The notes under the pieces: generated by a model
Told to the model about the DNA's origin: nothing
The model's input: only the letters and a program-made list of their open reading frames with translations
The model's database searches: none
From: Candidatus Ornithospirochaeta avicola
Lineage (GTDB): Bacteria; Spirochaetota; Spirochaetia; Sphaerochaetales; Sphaerochaetaceae
DNA: 36,947 nucleotides
NCBI GenBank assembly: GCA_019113245.1
Contig: DXHU01000003.1
Location: 1 to 36,947, forward strand
Reading direction: 5' to 3'
Program-made: the position numbers and the translations under genes
Part shown: one piece after another, positions 28,999 through 33,681 of the stretch
How the letters are laid out: each line of letters begins with the position of its first letter
Numbering within the stretch: the first letter of the stretch is position 1

Positions 28999-30546
28999 TT
29001 GGCAGCAAGACACCACGATACCATTGTTGTTCTCGATTTTGGGGCCCAGTACAGTCAGCTGATAGCACGCAGGGTAAGAGAGTGCGGAGTTTATTCTGAA
29101 ATCCTGCCATTTAATGCAAAGGCTTCAGAGATTGCAGCATTGCAGCCTAAGGGAATAATCTTCTCAGGCGGCCCTGCAAGCGTCAACACACCTTCATCTC
29201 CTCGCCCTGATGAAGCAGTCTTCTCAATGGGCATACCGATTCTTGGAATATGCTATGGGCTTCAGGTTATGTCCGTGATGCTCGGGGGAGAGGTTGTATG
29301 CCCTGAAAAGAAGGAATACGGGATAGCCAGTATAAACCTGACAAGGCCTTCACTGCTCTTCAAGGGAGTGAAAGATATGAGTGTCTGGATGAGCCATGGT
29401 GATAGTGTTGTGCGCATTCCTCATGGTTTTGATACTGTTGCATATACGCAGAACTGTCCTTACACGGCAATTGAAGATGAGAGGAGAAGATTCTACGGTC
29501 TTCAGTTCCATCCTGAAGTTGTCCACTCGAAGGAAGGGCACCTGATGATTAGGAATTTCGTCATTGATATCTGCCGTGCAGAGAATGACTGGAACATGGG
29601 CTCTTTCATTGACAGTGCTGTTGAAGAAATAAGGGCAAGGGTAGGATCCCGTCAGGTATTGTGCGGACTTTCAGGGGGCGTCGATTCGTCTGTTGCTGCC
29701 CTTCTCATACACAAAGCAATCGGGGATCAGCTGGTATGTGTCTTCGTAAATAATGGTATGCTGAGAAAGAATGAGGCGGAGAACGTGCTTAATCTTTTTG
29801 GAAAGCATTTCAATATGAGGCTTGAATATGCTGATGCAGAAGAAGCTTTCCTTTCTGCACTCAAAGGAGTTACTGATCCTGAGAGCAAGAGAAAGATTAT
29901 CGGAAAGCTCTTTGTCGACACATTCTACAGCGCAGCCAGAAAGTGCGGTGATATTTCTTTCCTTGCACAGGGAACACTTTATCCGGATGTGGTTGAATCA
30001 AGAAGTGTGCTTGGAGGCCCTTCAAGCACAATAAAGAGCCACCACAATGTCGGAGGACTTCCTGAGGATCTTAAATGGGAGCTTCTTGAGCCTCTGAAAG
30101 ATCTCTTCAAGGATGAGGTCAGAAGCCTTGGAAAGGCACTTGGCCTTCCTGATGAGCTCGTAAACCGTCATCCGTTCCCCGGCCCTGGACTAGGAGTCAG
30201 ATGCATAGGAGAGGTGACAAAAATCCGCCTCGATACCCTTAGAGAGATAGATGCAATCTTCATTGAGGAGATAAGAAAAGCAGGTCTTTACAACAAAATC
30301 TGGCAGGCTCTTGCAGATCTTCTTCCTGTAAAGAGCGTGGGTGTCCAGGGGGACGAGAGAACATACCGAGAAGTATGCACACTGCGTGCTGTGACGAGTG
30401 AGGATGCAATGACAGCCGACTGGTACAGGATGCCATATGATGTGATGCAGCGCTGTGCATCAAGAATATGCAATGAGGTTGCAGGAGTGAACAGAGTCCT
30501 TTATGACATAACCTCAAAACCACCAGGGACTATTGAGTGGGAATAG
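28999..30546 (+). CDS. guaA: GMP synthase (glutamine-hydrolysing)
   Basis: A 515-residue GuaA, XMP + Gln + ATP to GMP. N-terminal class I glutamine amidotransferase with the Cys nucleophile in ILGICYGLQVM and His/Glu in GLQFHPEVVH; ATP-pyrophosphatase P-loop CGLSGGVDSSVAA; C-terminal dimerisation domain with RHPFPGPGLGVR and the family terminus SKPPGTIEWE. It starts at TTG 28999: AGGAGG ends 6 bases upstream and no in-frame ATG occurs near the N-terminus; the ATG at 28994 is out of frame. Last gene of the long operon. Its 3' end carries a 13-bp word repeated at 32572. Confidence 0.97.
   Translation: MAARHHDTIVVLDFGAQYSQLIARRVRECGVYSEILPFNAKASEIAALQPKGIIFSGGPASVNTPSSPRPDEAVFSMGIPILGICYGLQVMSVMLGGEVVCPEKKEYGIASINLTRPSLLFKGVKDMSVWMSHGDSVVRIPHGFDTVAYTQNCPYTAIEDERRRFYGLQFHPEVVHSKEGHLMIRNFVIDICRAENDWNMGSFIDSAVEEIRARVGSRQVLCGLSGGVDSSVAALLIHKAIGDQLVCVFVNNGMLRKNEAENVLNLFGKHFNMRLEYADAEEAFLSALKGVTDPESKRKIIGKLFVDTFYSAARKCGDISFLAQGTLYPDVVESRSVLGGPSSTIKSHHNVGGLPEDLKWELLEPLKDLFKDEVRSLGKALGLPDELVNRHPFPGPGLGVRCIGEVTKIRLDTLREIDAIFIEEIRKAGLYNKIWQALADLLPVKSVGVQGDERTYREVCTLRAVTSEDAMTADWYRMPYDVMQRCASRICNEVAGVNRVLYDITSKPPGTIEWE
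30532..30544. repeat. putative attachment-site core at guaA 3' end (left copy)
   Basis: ATTGAGTGGGAAT, encoding the last residues of GuaA plus two bases of the stop codon; repeated at 32572-32584, where the surrounding codons also spell the GuaA C-terminus. The guaA 3' end is a documented integration hotspot for genomic islands. Confidence 0.6.
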
Positions 30547-30562
30547 ACCTGTATGCTATTAA

Positions 30563-30587
30563 CTCCTTGTAGTACAAGGAGTTTTTT
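30563..30587 (+). terminator. guaA terminator
   Basis: CTCCTTGT (30563-30570), AGT loop, ACAAGGAG (30574-30581), then TTTTTT. A perfect 8-bp stem 16 bases after the guaA stop. Confidence 0.93.
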
Positions 30588-30599
30588 GTTGTGTGACTG

Positions 30600-30863
30600 G
30601 CATGGTTTATTGCTAGAGGGAGGAAGATCCTTGAGAGAGTTGCAGTGCTTATCTCTAGCTGAACAGCAAAGGAGAAGCGGCTTGATGGTCTCATTGCCCA
30701 TGCCTCCCATCCAATCTCAACTGGAAAGCTTGAAGGATTCAACAGCAGGATAAAAGTTGCTAAGAGGATTGCCTATGGATACAGGGATGAAAATTACTTC
30801 TTCTCTTTAATTCAGTTTATCTCCATCCCTTTAGTTAGATCTCAATCCCTCAAGAAAACGTGA
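30600..30863 (+). pseudogene. ISL3-family transposase, 3' remnant
   Basis: Translation of 30663-30863 gives KRLDGLIAHASHPISTGKLEGFN followed by SRIKVAKRIAYGYRDENYFFSL and a stop, which is the characteristic C-terminus of ISL3-family (DDE) transposases (HPISTGKLEGFNNRIKVAKR-type). The same frame upstream (30600-30659) is open but interrupted by a TGA at 30660-30662, and the rest of the gene is missing. So this is a 5'-deleted, nonsense-containing fossil. It lies just after the guaA terminator. Confidence 0.85.
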
Positions 30864-30869
30864 AGAGCC
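30849..30869. mobile_element. ISL3 right terminal inverted repeat
   Basis: Read inward from 30869 on the minus strand the end is GGCTCTTCACGTTTTC, matching the GGCTCTT-type termini of ISL3 elements, and it overlaps the transposase stop as usual. The matching left end is absent, so the element is truncated. AATATTTT (30870-30877) would be one arm of an 8-bp target duplication. Confidence 0.75.
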
Positions 30870-30892
30870 AATATTTTCCTGTCTACTTCTAT

Positions 30893-30902
30893 TGACTAGT
30901 AC
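30893..30902. repeat. 10-bp direct repeat, left copy
   Basis: TGACTAGTAC, repeated at 32598-32607. The pair brackets the DUF4143 gene and the deacetylase fragment. Confidence 0.45.
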
Positions 30903-30920
30903 AACTAGTGAAATTTTTTC

Positions 30921-31000
30921 GGAAAAATGTGTTTTGATATACCATATTTTCCAGGAAAAATGTGTAAAATTGCTGTCTTAGAACCTGGAAAAATGTGTTA
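30921..31000. repeat. three GGAAAAATGTGT repeats at exact 33-bp spacing
   Basis: GGAAAAATGTGT starts at 30921, 30954 and 30987, so the period is exactly 33 bp (three helical turns) with 21-bp unrelated spacers. The third copy runs into TGTTATACT, giving an extended -10 box (TATACT 30999-31004) for the DUF4143 gene. The same face of the helix would be presented three times, which suggests cooperative protein binding at the promoter. Confidence 0.85.
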
Positions 31001-31026
31001 TACTAATTTTGGTTAACATAATTGTG

Positions 31027-32328
31027 ATGACGAATATGAAACGGAATGCATTTTCAGAACTGGTGAAATGGAAGAACAATCCTGATCGGAAACCGCTGAT
31101 CATCAGGGGTGCCCGTCAGGTAGGCAAGACATGGCTCATGAAGGAATTCGGTAAATCCTGCTATGAAAGCTTTGTCTATTTCAACTTTGATGAAATGGAG
31201 GAACTTAAATCCATCTTCGAGACGAACAAGAATCCTCAGCGGATCATTGAACTGCTTACCCTGATTGCAGGTGAAAGAATTTTGCCGGGAAAGACTCTTA
31301 TCATTTTCGATGAGGTGCAGGAATGCCCTGAAGCTTTGAATACACTAAAATATTTCAGGGAGAAGGCAAATGACTATCATGTTATTGCCGCTGGCAGTCT
31401 GCTTGGAACTCTGCTTTCACAGCCCAAGTCATACCCTGTTGGTATGGTCAACATAATTGATCTCTATCCCCTGTATTTTGATGAATTTCTGGAAGCTACT
31501 GACGTGTCTCTTTTTGCTTACTATGAAAGCATCAGAAAAGATCAGGTGATTGAGGACGTTTTCCATAACCGCCTGCTTGAAGCCTATGGTAACTATCTGA
31601 TTATAGGAGGAATGCCTGAATGTGTTGTCTCTTGGGTCAATCGCAAAGATCCGGTTGCAGTATCACAGATACAGAGGGAACTCATCGAGATATATGAAAA
31701 CGATTTTTCCAAGCACAATGGAAAAGTGAACAGCGGCCGTATTCTGATGGTGTTCCGCAGCATTGTCTCCCAGCTTGCCAAATCCAACGAGAAATTCATT
31801 TATGGTTCGGTTCGTCAAGGAGGCAGAGCCAGGGACTTTGAAGAAGCAATCGAGTGGCTTGTCTCGGCTGATATGATCAATCGTATTTACAATGTTTCAA
31901 AAATTGAACATCCGCTTGCTGCATTCGACAAGCTTGATCAGTTCAAACTGTTTCTCTTTGATACCGGACTCTTGAAGCATATGGCTGGTATAGATAATAG
32001 TGCAATTCTGCTGAAGTCAGGATATCAGTTCAAAGGTCCTCTGACTGAGAACTATGTCCTGCAGCAGCTTCACGGTAGACTGGATGTGGAGCCACGCTAT
32101 TTTTCGGATAAAAGAGGGGAAATTGATTTCGTGCTTCAGTATGGATCTGAGATTGTTCCTGTTGAGGTGAAAGGCGGTGAAGACAAGTCTGCCCCCTCAT
32201 TCAAACACTATATTTCAGAACATCATCCTGAACATGCAGTACGTTTTTCAAAGCGTGGATACAGAAAGGACGGAAATATTACCAACATACCTCTATATCT
32301 TGCGGGTAAGATGAATGAGCTGCTTTGA
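31027..32328 (+). CDS. AAA ATPase with DUF4143 C-terminal domain
   Basis: A 433-residue AAA_14/DUF4143 protein. Walker A GARQVGKT (28-35), Walker B LIIFDEVQE (91-99), sensor-like VIAAGSLLG, then the DUF4143 region (ENYVLQQLHGRLDVEPRYFSDK) ending in a nuclease-fold-like EIDFVLQYGSEIVPVEVKGG with acidic residues and E-x-K. Function of this abundant accessory family is not established; links to DNA binding and mobile or defence regions are common. ATG 31027 or 31036 could be the start; neither has a strong Shine-Dalgarno. It is preceded by the phased repeats and followed by a TTTATAAA box. Confidence 0.9.
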   Translation: MTNMKRNAFSELVKWKNNPDRKPLIIRGARQVGKTWLMKEFGKSCYESFVYFNFDEMEELKSIFETNKNPQRIIELLTLIAGERILPGKTLIIFDEVQECPEALNTLKYFREKANDYHVIAAGSLLGTLLSQPKSYPVGMVNIIDLYPLYFDEFLEATDVSLFAYYESIRKDQVIEDVFHNRLLEAYGNYLIIGGMPECVVSWVNRKDPVAVSQIQRELIEIYENDFSKHNGKVNSGRILMVFRSIVSQLAKSNEKFIYGSVRQGGRARDFEEAIEWLVSADMINRIYNVSKIEHPLAAFDKLDQFKLFLFDTGLLKHMAGIDNSAILLKSGYQFKGPLTENYVLQQLHGRLDVEPRYFSDKRGEIDFVLQYGSEIVPVEVKGGEDKSAPSFKHYISEHHPEHAVRFSKRGYRKDGNITNIPLYLAGKMNELL

Positions 32329-32382
32329 TTATTTATAAAGGTGATGATGTGCAAATATAATATTGAGTCAGGAGAAACATTC

Positions 32383-32586
32383 ATGCAGTTAAGACGGATT
32401 CATATATTGTTCCTGCAGGGAAGAAACAAGGTTCTCAATTTCAGTTATGATGACGGAAGGAAGGAGGACAGAAGGCTTGTCTCCATTTTCAGGAAACACG
32501 GACTCAAGGCCACTTTTAATCTCAACTCCGGTGAGACGGATACAGATGAACGCAGGATCCCGCCAGCAACGATTGAGTGGGAATGA
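32383..32586 (+). pseudogene. polysaccharide deacetylase N-terminal fragment fused to a GuaA tail
   Basis: ATG 32383 follows GGAGA by 7 bases. The first 45 codons encode the start of a NodB-type deacetylase (NKVLNFSYDDGRKEDRRLVS, then KHGLKATFNLNSG), with the metal-binding Asp pair in SYDDG. The rest of the ~200-residue domain is missing. After a short linker the frame ends PPATIEWE-stop, which is the C-terminus of GuaA, not of a deacetylase. So the gene is truncated at a recombination junction. The 67-residue product should have no deacetylase activity. Confidence 0.8.
32572..32584. repeat. putative attachment-site core (right copy, displaced guaA 3' end)
   Basis: ATTGAGTGGGAAT, identical to 30532-30544. 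The preceding codons (CCG CCA GCA ACG) differ from guaA's (CCA CCA GGG ACT) mainly at third positions yet encode PPAT, a common variant of the GuaA terminus. This looks like the 3' end of another guaA allele, as left when an island integrates into the gene. Confidence 0.65.
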
Positions 32587-32597
32587 TGACATTTTAA

Positions 32598-32607
32598 TGA
32601 CTAGTAC
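32598..32607. repeat. 10-bp direct repeat, right copy
   Basis: TGACTAGTAC, identical to 30893-30902, fourteen bases after the displaced guaA tail. Confidence 0.45.
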
Positions 32608-32765
32608 GTGCCTGTAGCAAGTATTCTTTATGCACATTGATTCGCTCAATATAAATGCAAAATAGAATAATAAATTAAATTTTATTTATAAAAATATATC
32701 TGTTTTTATAAAGATAGTTGACATAAAAGTTATTTCTGAGAGCCTTACTTCAAGCAGAGGTAACC

Positions 32766-32828
32766 ATGAAAGAACTTCCAATACAATTTGATTTTGAAAC
32801 AGCTCCAATAGTGAAAATTGATTCCTGA
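32766..32828 (+). pseudogene. possible N-terminal remnant of a Fic-family protein
   Basis: A 20-codon frame, MKELPIQFDFETAPIVKIDS, preceded by AGAGG. The LPIQFDFET segment resembles the extreme N-terminus of Fic/DOC-family AMP-transferases with the form LPIKFDLET. No HPFxxGNGR motif follows, so if related it is only a stub. The match is short and low in certainty. Confidence 0.35.
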
Positions 32829-33019: not shown

Positions 33020-33427
33020 TTAAGATTTTATCCCGACTTCAAAGCTATCAAAAAAAGTTCTTCTTTTAAGTTCATTAAGAAGCTTTTGATCAAAAGAATA
33101 CACTTCCGTATCAGATGCTGTACCTTCCGCAATCAAAAGACAATCCACAAAATCAAGCCTTGTGTCTTGATAAATTTTTAGGGCATGTTTTATCACATCC
33201 TTCCTGTGGACAGTCACTTCATCAAGCAAAGCTTCAACGGACTCTGCAACAACAGTGCGCGGCATTCCATATAAACTTCTGCTTGTAAGCACATAGATCA
33301 GCTCGGGAACCGTTTCCGGAAGAATTTCCACGCCACCTCTGATGATTTCTGCCGCCTTATCAGCTGCCTTCTCATCATCTCTTGTAAGATAACGCACAAG
33401 AATGTTGGTGTCGGCTATTCTCCTCAT
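33020..33427 (-). CDS. PIN-domain toxin, VapC family
   Basis: A 135-residue PIN domain, a predicted Mg2+-dependent ribonuclease. The acidic metal site is visible: Asp6 in IADTNILVRYL, Glu42 in ETVPELIYVL, Asp95 in DFVDCLLIAEG and Asp113 in SFDQKLL. Its ATG overlaps the antitoxin stop (ATGA), the standard antitoxin-first type II operon. Target RNA unknown. Confidence 0.9.
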   Translation of the reverse strand: MRRIADTNILVRYLTRDDEKAADKAAEIIRGGVEILPETVPELIYVLTSRSLYGMPRTVVAESVEALLDEVTVHRKDVIKHALKIYQDTRLDFVDCLLIAEGTASDTEVYSFDQKLLNELKRRTFFDSFEVGIKS

Positions 33428-33681
33428 CTCCAGCTCTCCTCGACAGCCGATTTCCAGGCATCGTTCATTTCCCTGTCGTCCACATGTCTTTTAACATATT
33501 TTTTCAGCATTCCTCCAGCTTTCAATTCAACAGGTTGCTTCGTCCTTTTCTGAATAAGGATGCCCTTTTCAGTTGTAGAGATATCAACTTCATCACCAGG
33601 AGCGTATCCTACAGCTTTCATGATGTCGCTTGGAATCCTGACCCCCTGAGAGTTTCCCCATCGTGCGATTGTTGTTATCAT
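33424..33681 (-). CDS. AbrB/MazE-like antitoxin of the PIN toxin
   Basis: An 85-residue swapped-hairpin AbrB-fold protein: ITTIARWGNSQGVRIPSDIMKAVGYAPGDEVDISTTEKGILIQK forms the DNA-binding half (about 1-46); the polar C-terminal part (KKYVKRHVDDREMNDAWKSAVEESW) should wrap the toxin. GGAG lies 9 bases upstream. It is driven by a near-consensus promoter overlapping a palindrome, fitting autorepression. Confidence 0.9.
   Translation of the reverse strand: MITTIARWGNSQGVRIPSDIMKAVGYAPGDEVDISTTEKGILIQKRTKQPVELKAGGMLKKYVKRHVDDREMNDAWKSAVEESWR

Follow-up and report, generated by a model that had tools for sequence, protein, structure and literature searches.

The array upstream of a DUF4143 ATPase gene

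The window analysed here, the whole 36,947-nucleotide stretch of contig DXHU01000003.1 from Candidatus Ornithospirochaeta avicola, carries a DUF4143 ATPase gene whose start codon is preceded by three direct repeats of the 12-bp word GGAAAAATGTGT. As the initial annotation had described, the repeats are exact (30921-30932, 30954-30965 and 30987-30998), and both spacings are 33 bp. The features of the locus, all on the plus strand, are as follows.

30918-30932, plus: repeat unit 1 (TTCGGAAAAATGTGT), from the sequence
30951-30965, plus: repeat unit 2 (CCAGGAAAAATGTGT), from the sequence
30984-30998, plus: repeat unit 3 (CCTGGAAAAATGTGT), at the would-be -35/-10 spacer of a putatively positioned promoter
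30996-31004, plus: extended -10-like element TGTTATACT (hexamer 30999-31004), from the sequence
31027-32328, plus: DUF4143 ATPase gene (AAA_14, winged helix and PD-(D/E)XK), 433 aa, ATG at 31027; PADLOC PDC-S01
31087-31491, plus: AAA_14 ATPase domain, with Walker A GARQVGKT and the Walker B region DEVQ
31732-31956, plus: predicted winged helix, residues 236-310, from the AlphaFold2 model
31828-31866, plus: predicted recognition helix, residues 268-280, from the AlphaFold2 model; the best word-predicting segment
32032-32286, plus: PD-(D/E)XK nuclease-like domain, residues 336-420, from its motif and PMC12988326

The window holds no further copy of GGAAAAATGTGT at up to one mismatch, and the genome (1.50 Mb, 97% complete) holds no exact copy outside the array. 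The array is the sole equally spaced triple of exact 12-mers in the window, and none of 100 shuffled windows contained such a triple. Together with the lag and neighbour-gene controls described below, this rules out a chance origin and bears out the earlier claim that the array is under selection. Three other origins were rejected: a structured RNA (no Rfam matches across 30400-32800), a tRNA-linked site (no tRNAs in the window) and derivation from a phage (no DNA matches in the phage collection).

The third repeat had also been said to merge with the promoter. Unit 3 does run into TGTTATACT, which is followed after 22 bp by the ATG at 31027; the promoter itself is a prediction, plausible at this position, and a consensus scan called none there because it found no match to a -35 element.

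The DUF4143 locus has the appearance of an islet that integrated at the 3' end of guaA. The 13-bp sequence ATTGAGTGGGAAT, which encodes the TIEWE end of guaA, occurs at 30532-30544 and again at 32572-32584, and these are its sole two copies in the genome; the second lies beyond the DUF4143 gene, where it closes a deacetylase fragment in frame. That fragment is a short ORF (32341-32586) with a guaA-like tail; its similarity, to the N-terminal region of a polysaccharide deacetylase, scores under the Pfam cut-off. Directly upstream of the array, at 30696-30863, lies the C-terminal remnant of an ISL3-type transposase. Next to the islet, on the minus strand (33020-33681), a PIN-domain gene and a MazE-type antitoxin gene form a VapBC-like pair.

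The encoded ATPase-nuclease

The window protein matches the Pfam families PF13635 and PF13173 at 109.2 and 107.4 bits (cut-offs 28.1 and 27). G33, K34, D95, E96, D367, E380 and K382 are invariant or nearly so in homologue alignments, and E365 is conserved as well. An AlphaFold2 model built with 50 homologues (mean pLDDT 91.5) comprises an ATPase core, a winged helix at residues 236-310 and, at the C-terminus, an alpha/beta domain that has the E..D..ExK residues of PD-(D/E)XK nucleases. A sequence search against solved structures returned matches to the ATPase region of midasin alone. By fold, the best of the matches listed are PABY2304 (2qen, Z 16.9) and SSO1545 (2fna, Z 15.5), followed among those listed by the STAND proteins CED-4, plant NLRs and Avs5. 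The alignment to 2qen and 2fna covers 269 residues, that is, the ATPase and the winged helix, and the model thus contains the AAA core and C-terminal winged helix of STAND/SSO1545-type ATPases; unlike in those structures, where the match ends near residue 320, the window protein continues into its uncovered PD-(D/E)XK domain.

The PADLOC model for PDC-S01 (PDLC04786) matches the protein over its full length (residues 2-430 of 433, E 7.1e-169), and the domain architecture agrees with PMC12988326, where PDC-S01 is described as a fusion of an ATPase with a PD-(D/E)XK domain. According to the same paper, PDC-S01 ranks fourth in frequency among the defence systems of prokaryotes, and most PDC candidates still await validation; according to PMC13356809, rumen genomes carry it more often than any other single locus.

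A 32-33 bp period recurs across the family

Exact pairs of GGAAAAATGTGT 33 bp apart, sought in 40 relatives, were found in the window's own genome only. Upstream regions were later scored for self-match at any lag, that is, for a period rather than a word. On this scoring, nearly all of 40 same-genus homologues carry 32-33 bp arrays whose words differ from GGAAAAATGTGT (those of congeners include TTCCCCTAGAAAAATGT, TTCGTCGGTAAAATGTG, TAAAAATATGCA and GTAAAAACTGTCA), as do genomes from many phyla. An upstream search of homologues, which the initial annotation had proposed, therefore recovers the geometry and not the letters. The refutation it attached to that search, absence of the motif, would reject a true finding, because it is the geometry that is conserved.

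The wider survey comprised 107 DUF4143 genes from many phyla, dereplicated at 70% identity. In this set, which leans to relatives of the window subfamily, consists mostly of MAGs and scarcely samples archaeal members, the best upstream self-match fell at lag 32 or 33 for 75 of the 107 genes, against 2 to 7 in gene, downstream and shuffled controls. A self-match score of at least 12 within the last 150 bp was reached by 65 of 107 genes; the corresponding controls gave 2 at the gene start, none in mid gene, 4 of 105 downstream and 0-1 after shuffling. In the lag spectrum the maximum is at 32-33, and a smaller rise follows at 65-66. When genes at the same loci were compared, a strong 31-34 bp array preceded 41 of 77 DUF4143 genes and 1 of 301 others (Fisher p = 3e-32), which supports the proposed link between array and gene family.

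The spacing stays within about 1 bp of its typical value across phyla: 33 bp was counted 72 times, 32 bp 29 times, 34 bp four times and 31 bp three times. Its mean over 64 arrays, 32.7 bp, corresponds to 3.12 turns at 10.5 bp per turn, and successive sites would therefore be rotated by about 40 degrees, so that 33 bp is not exactly three turns and the exact three-turn, same-face phasing first suggested holds only approximately. Plasmid-borne copies from named isolates follow the pattern, with three units at 33 bp in Collinsella aerofaciens and two at 32 bp in Acinetobacter towneri; a Bacteroides thetaiotaomicron plasmid copy has two units 66 bp apart, and the array of the Collinsella homologue L292 is three units of CACATTTTCCGATGGAAAAACGTG. 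About 30% of the sampled DUF4143 genes have no clear 32/33 array, among them a 56%-identical congener (L016/L045), and one archaeal-labelled MAG gave weak array signals only.

These comparisons bear on whether the array might serve mobility or processing: it could act in cis in the transfer of the gene, be cut by a nuclease, or be the iteron-like origin of a small mobile islet with the DUF4143 gene as its cargo. Such a role would suit the two flanking guaA 3'-end copies, the adjacent transposase remnant and the occurrence of near relatives (75-79%) in Clostridia. It is nevertheless very unlikely: the repeat is one-sided and always at the promoter, the downstream control windows lack it, and the window locus has no linked integrase or replication gene. 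As to a plasmid iteron origin in particular, the locus lies on a chromosomal contig, between guaA and the deacetylase fragment, and the neighbours examined include no replication gene.

The repeated word is private to each gene lineage

Words were compared among 40 paralogues from seven congeners. For cross-genome pairs of at least 60% protein identity, the unit words score at least 10 in 79-83% of cases, and the spacers between them do so in 5-6%, the random level; a common word is found in 3% of same-genome paralogue pairs. Across 110 arrays, word similarity climbs with protein identity (Mantel p = 0.003). On these comparisons, the period is conserved across the family and the word is specific to the orthologous group, which does not support the expectation of a conserved GGAAAAATGTGT motif. 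Since orthologues share words at an identity where spacers are already random, and paralogues differ, duplication by slippage is not the main explanation of the arrays.

The same contrast decides against a shared host factor. An AAAAnGTG-like core is common to many of the array words, as might be expected if the units were sites of a host global regulator and not of the encoded protein. Paralogues in one genome nonetheless differ in word, orthologues in different genomes agree, and the words are not found elsewhere in the genomes; a common regulator is rejected as the main explanation, and we regard it as most improbable.

Two array words other than GGAAAAATGTGT, used as blind probes against 48 congeners, matched 16 sites. 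Nine were intact DUF4143 promoters (assigned by coordinates); the only hits away from DUF4143 promoters were a remnant of such a gene and an orphan array. The remnant site (L250, G006:C1:59471) joins an array to a 3' DUF4143 fragment, residues 365-417, at about 79% identity, and by that fragment it is a case of a gene deleted and an array kept. The orphan (L204, G059:C51:16098, minus strand) belongs to the TTCCCCTAGAAAARTG type and has decayed in part; no DUF4143 gene was found in its locus. Elsewhere, one gene (L044/L015, G055:C12) is preceded by two tandem arrays, with TTCGCTCATCTTTTAGGA units upstream and AGAAAAATGTG units near the ATG, as if one array were left over from a lost neighbour.

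Covariation points to the winged helix

Residue identity was compared column by column with word similarity after the effect of overall identity had been removed. The columns that best predict the word concentrate at residues 245-280, and the recognition helix (268-280) exceeds permutations with p 0.003-0.01, phylogeny being only partly controlled; for the wider helix-turn-helix, p was 0.06 in one identity band. In the same column-wise test, the ATPase and nuclease domains gave no excess of covariation with the word. A simple Mantel comparison by whole domain (AAA, winged helix, nuclease) did not separate the domains. Because the effect is moderate and the control for phylogeny partial, the covariation is support, not proof, that the recognition helix reads the word. 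A private word that tracks the predicted DNA-reading helix suggests binding and control of each gene by its own protein.

A proposed model of autoregulation

Based on these data, a simple model would treat the array as the cognate operator to which the encoded ATPase binds cooperatively and through which it regulates its own gene, most likely by repression. We consider this model probable, and the autoregulatory operator first proposed is retained as the best mechanism, with binding by the protein read from the covariation. For the window, it draws on the array, its spacing, the phylum-wide recurrence, the gene-specific words and the word-protein covariation. The winged helix of each DUF4143 protein would read the word private to its own lineage, and several protomers would occupy adjacent units 32-33 bp apart. 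Because the spacing is rigid, neighbouring protomers probably contact one another and form a short helical assembly across the promoter. Unit 3 of the window array would lie between -35 and -10, where binding should block RNA polymerase, and autorepression would keep a potentially harmful ATPase-nuclease low. We infer that the protein binds the array, that binding is cooperative and represses the gene, and that there may be a release when phages infect the cell.

The placement of the arrays bears on the sign of the regulation. Units sit within about 130 bp of the ATG; the last ends about 1 to 120 bp before it, at a likewise variable distance from the predicted -10, and 64 of 84 arrays overlap the predicted -35/-10 region (promoters being predictions throughout). 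Given this variation, no single geometry of repression would apply, and activation is possible in some genes. It is accordingly conceivable that the cognate protein, once bound, activates its own promoter in a positive feedback: units of L100, L101 and L120 lie just upstream of TTGAC(A)-like -35 elements, and many arrays stop well upstream of the predicted -10. As a general account this is quite unlikely, since the last unit of the window array, like that of many homologues, falls inside the -10 region or at it, and a protein bound there should occlude polymerase; repression is favoured over activation.

A different emphasis would make autoregulation secondary, with the array serving mainly to load a STAND-like ATPase-nuclease and hold it inactive until phage-driven changes in DNA or transcription at the array release the nuclease or activate it. 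The closest folds, archaeal SSO1545/PABY2304 ATPases and STAND NTPases (CED-4, Avs5), would suit such a platform, as would the standing of PDC-S01 as a candidate defence gene and a spacing that varies by only about 1 bp from phylum to phylum, which an assembly would require. The location at promoters is already explained by simple autoregulation, and a pure platform need not be there; we judge this alternative unlikely. A broader, tentative proposal, to which we give somewhat more room but which we doubt as a whole, keeps the operator and adds to it. Each family member would form a private, orthogonal pair with its array, which would nucleate an on-DNA ATPase-nuclease assembly and act as both brake and sentinel site, the nuclease being released on infection; helix and word would co-diversify, and paralogues would coexist without cross-talk.

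Relation to known systems

Autoregulated defence and toxin-antitoxin operons, such as those of BrxR/CapW, AbiEi and MazE-type proteins, have a DNA-binding protein that controls its own promoter through repeats. The DUF4143 system differs from these in that the predicted DNA-binding part, the ATPase and the nuclease-like domain form one polypeptide, and in that the word is lineage-private while the period of 32-33 bp stays the same from phylum to phylum. In iteron, DnaA-box and Orc1-Cdc6 origin arrays, too, direct repeats are phased and a winged-helix initiator reads them. DUF4143 repeats resemble those of iteron and Orc1-Cdc6 arrays in their phasing, and Orc1/Cdc6 is among the listed fold matches of the window protein; unlike such arrays, they lie at the promoter of a chromosomal gene, with no replicon.

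The available parts of the PDC-S01 descriptions (PMC12988326, PMC13356809) mention a candidate defence function and no cis-regulatory array. A search of the open-access literature returned nothing relevant on the arrays, one paper that names DUF4143 and none that names PF13635, and an earlier report elsewhere is possible. For PDC-S01, a gene-specific cis element would supply a defined DNA ligand, a readout of specificity and a reporter design. The array also marks intact, decayed and orphan DUF4143 copies in genomes, and the many natural word-helix pairs could help to decode how winged helices recognise their DNA words and to construct orthogonal regulators.

Related subfamilies and unit layouts

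A shorter DUF4143 subfamily (about 390 aa, GPRQSGKT) is without 33-bp arrays. In 13 of 21 of its genes a gene-specific palindrome at the promoter, often within about 30 bp of the ATG (for example TATGCAGATTTGAAGTTGTACTTCAAATTTGCATA), exceeds the 99th percentile of shuffles (mean 12.1 vs 6.2). The sister ATPase genes of the DUF234 family (PF03008), which belong to the same class, often have 15-16 bp repeats just 5' of the start codon, in a small sample taken without a formal control (L294-L296, L299-L303, L305 and L306, the last with ACTACGAAGCGTTGTA units). More generally, because of these palindromes and repeats, a private promoter element seems to be general to these ATPase-nucleases, and each subfamily has its own typical geometry. 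Among the 33-bp arrays, the units of L144, L145, L170 and L292 are themselves palindromic (CACGTTTTTC..GAAAAACGTG), amounting to two opposed AAAAnGTG half-sites per 33-bp period.
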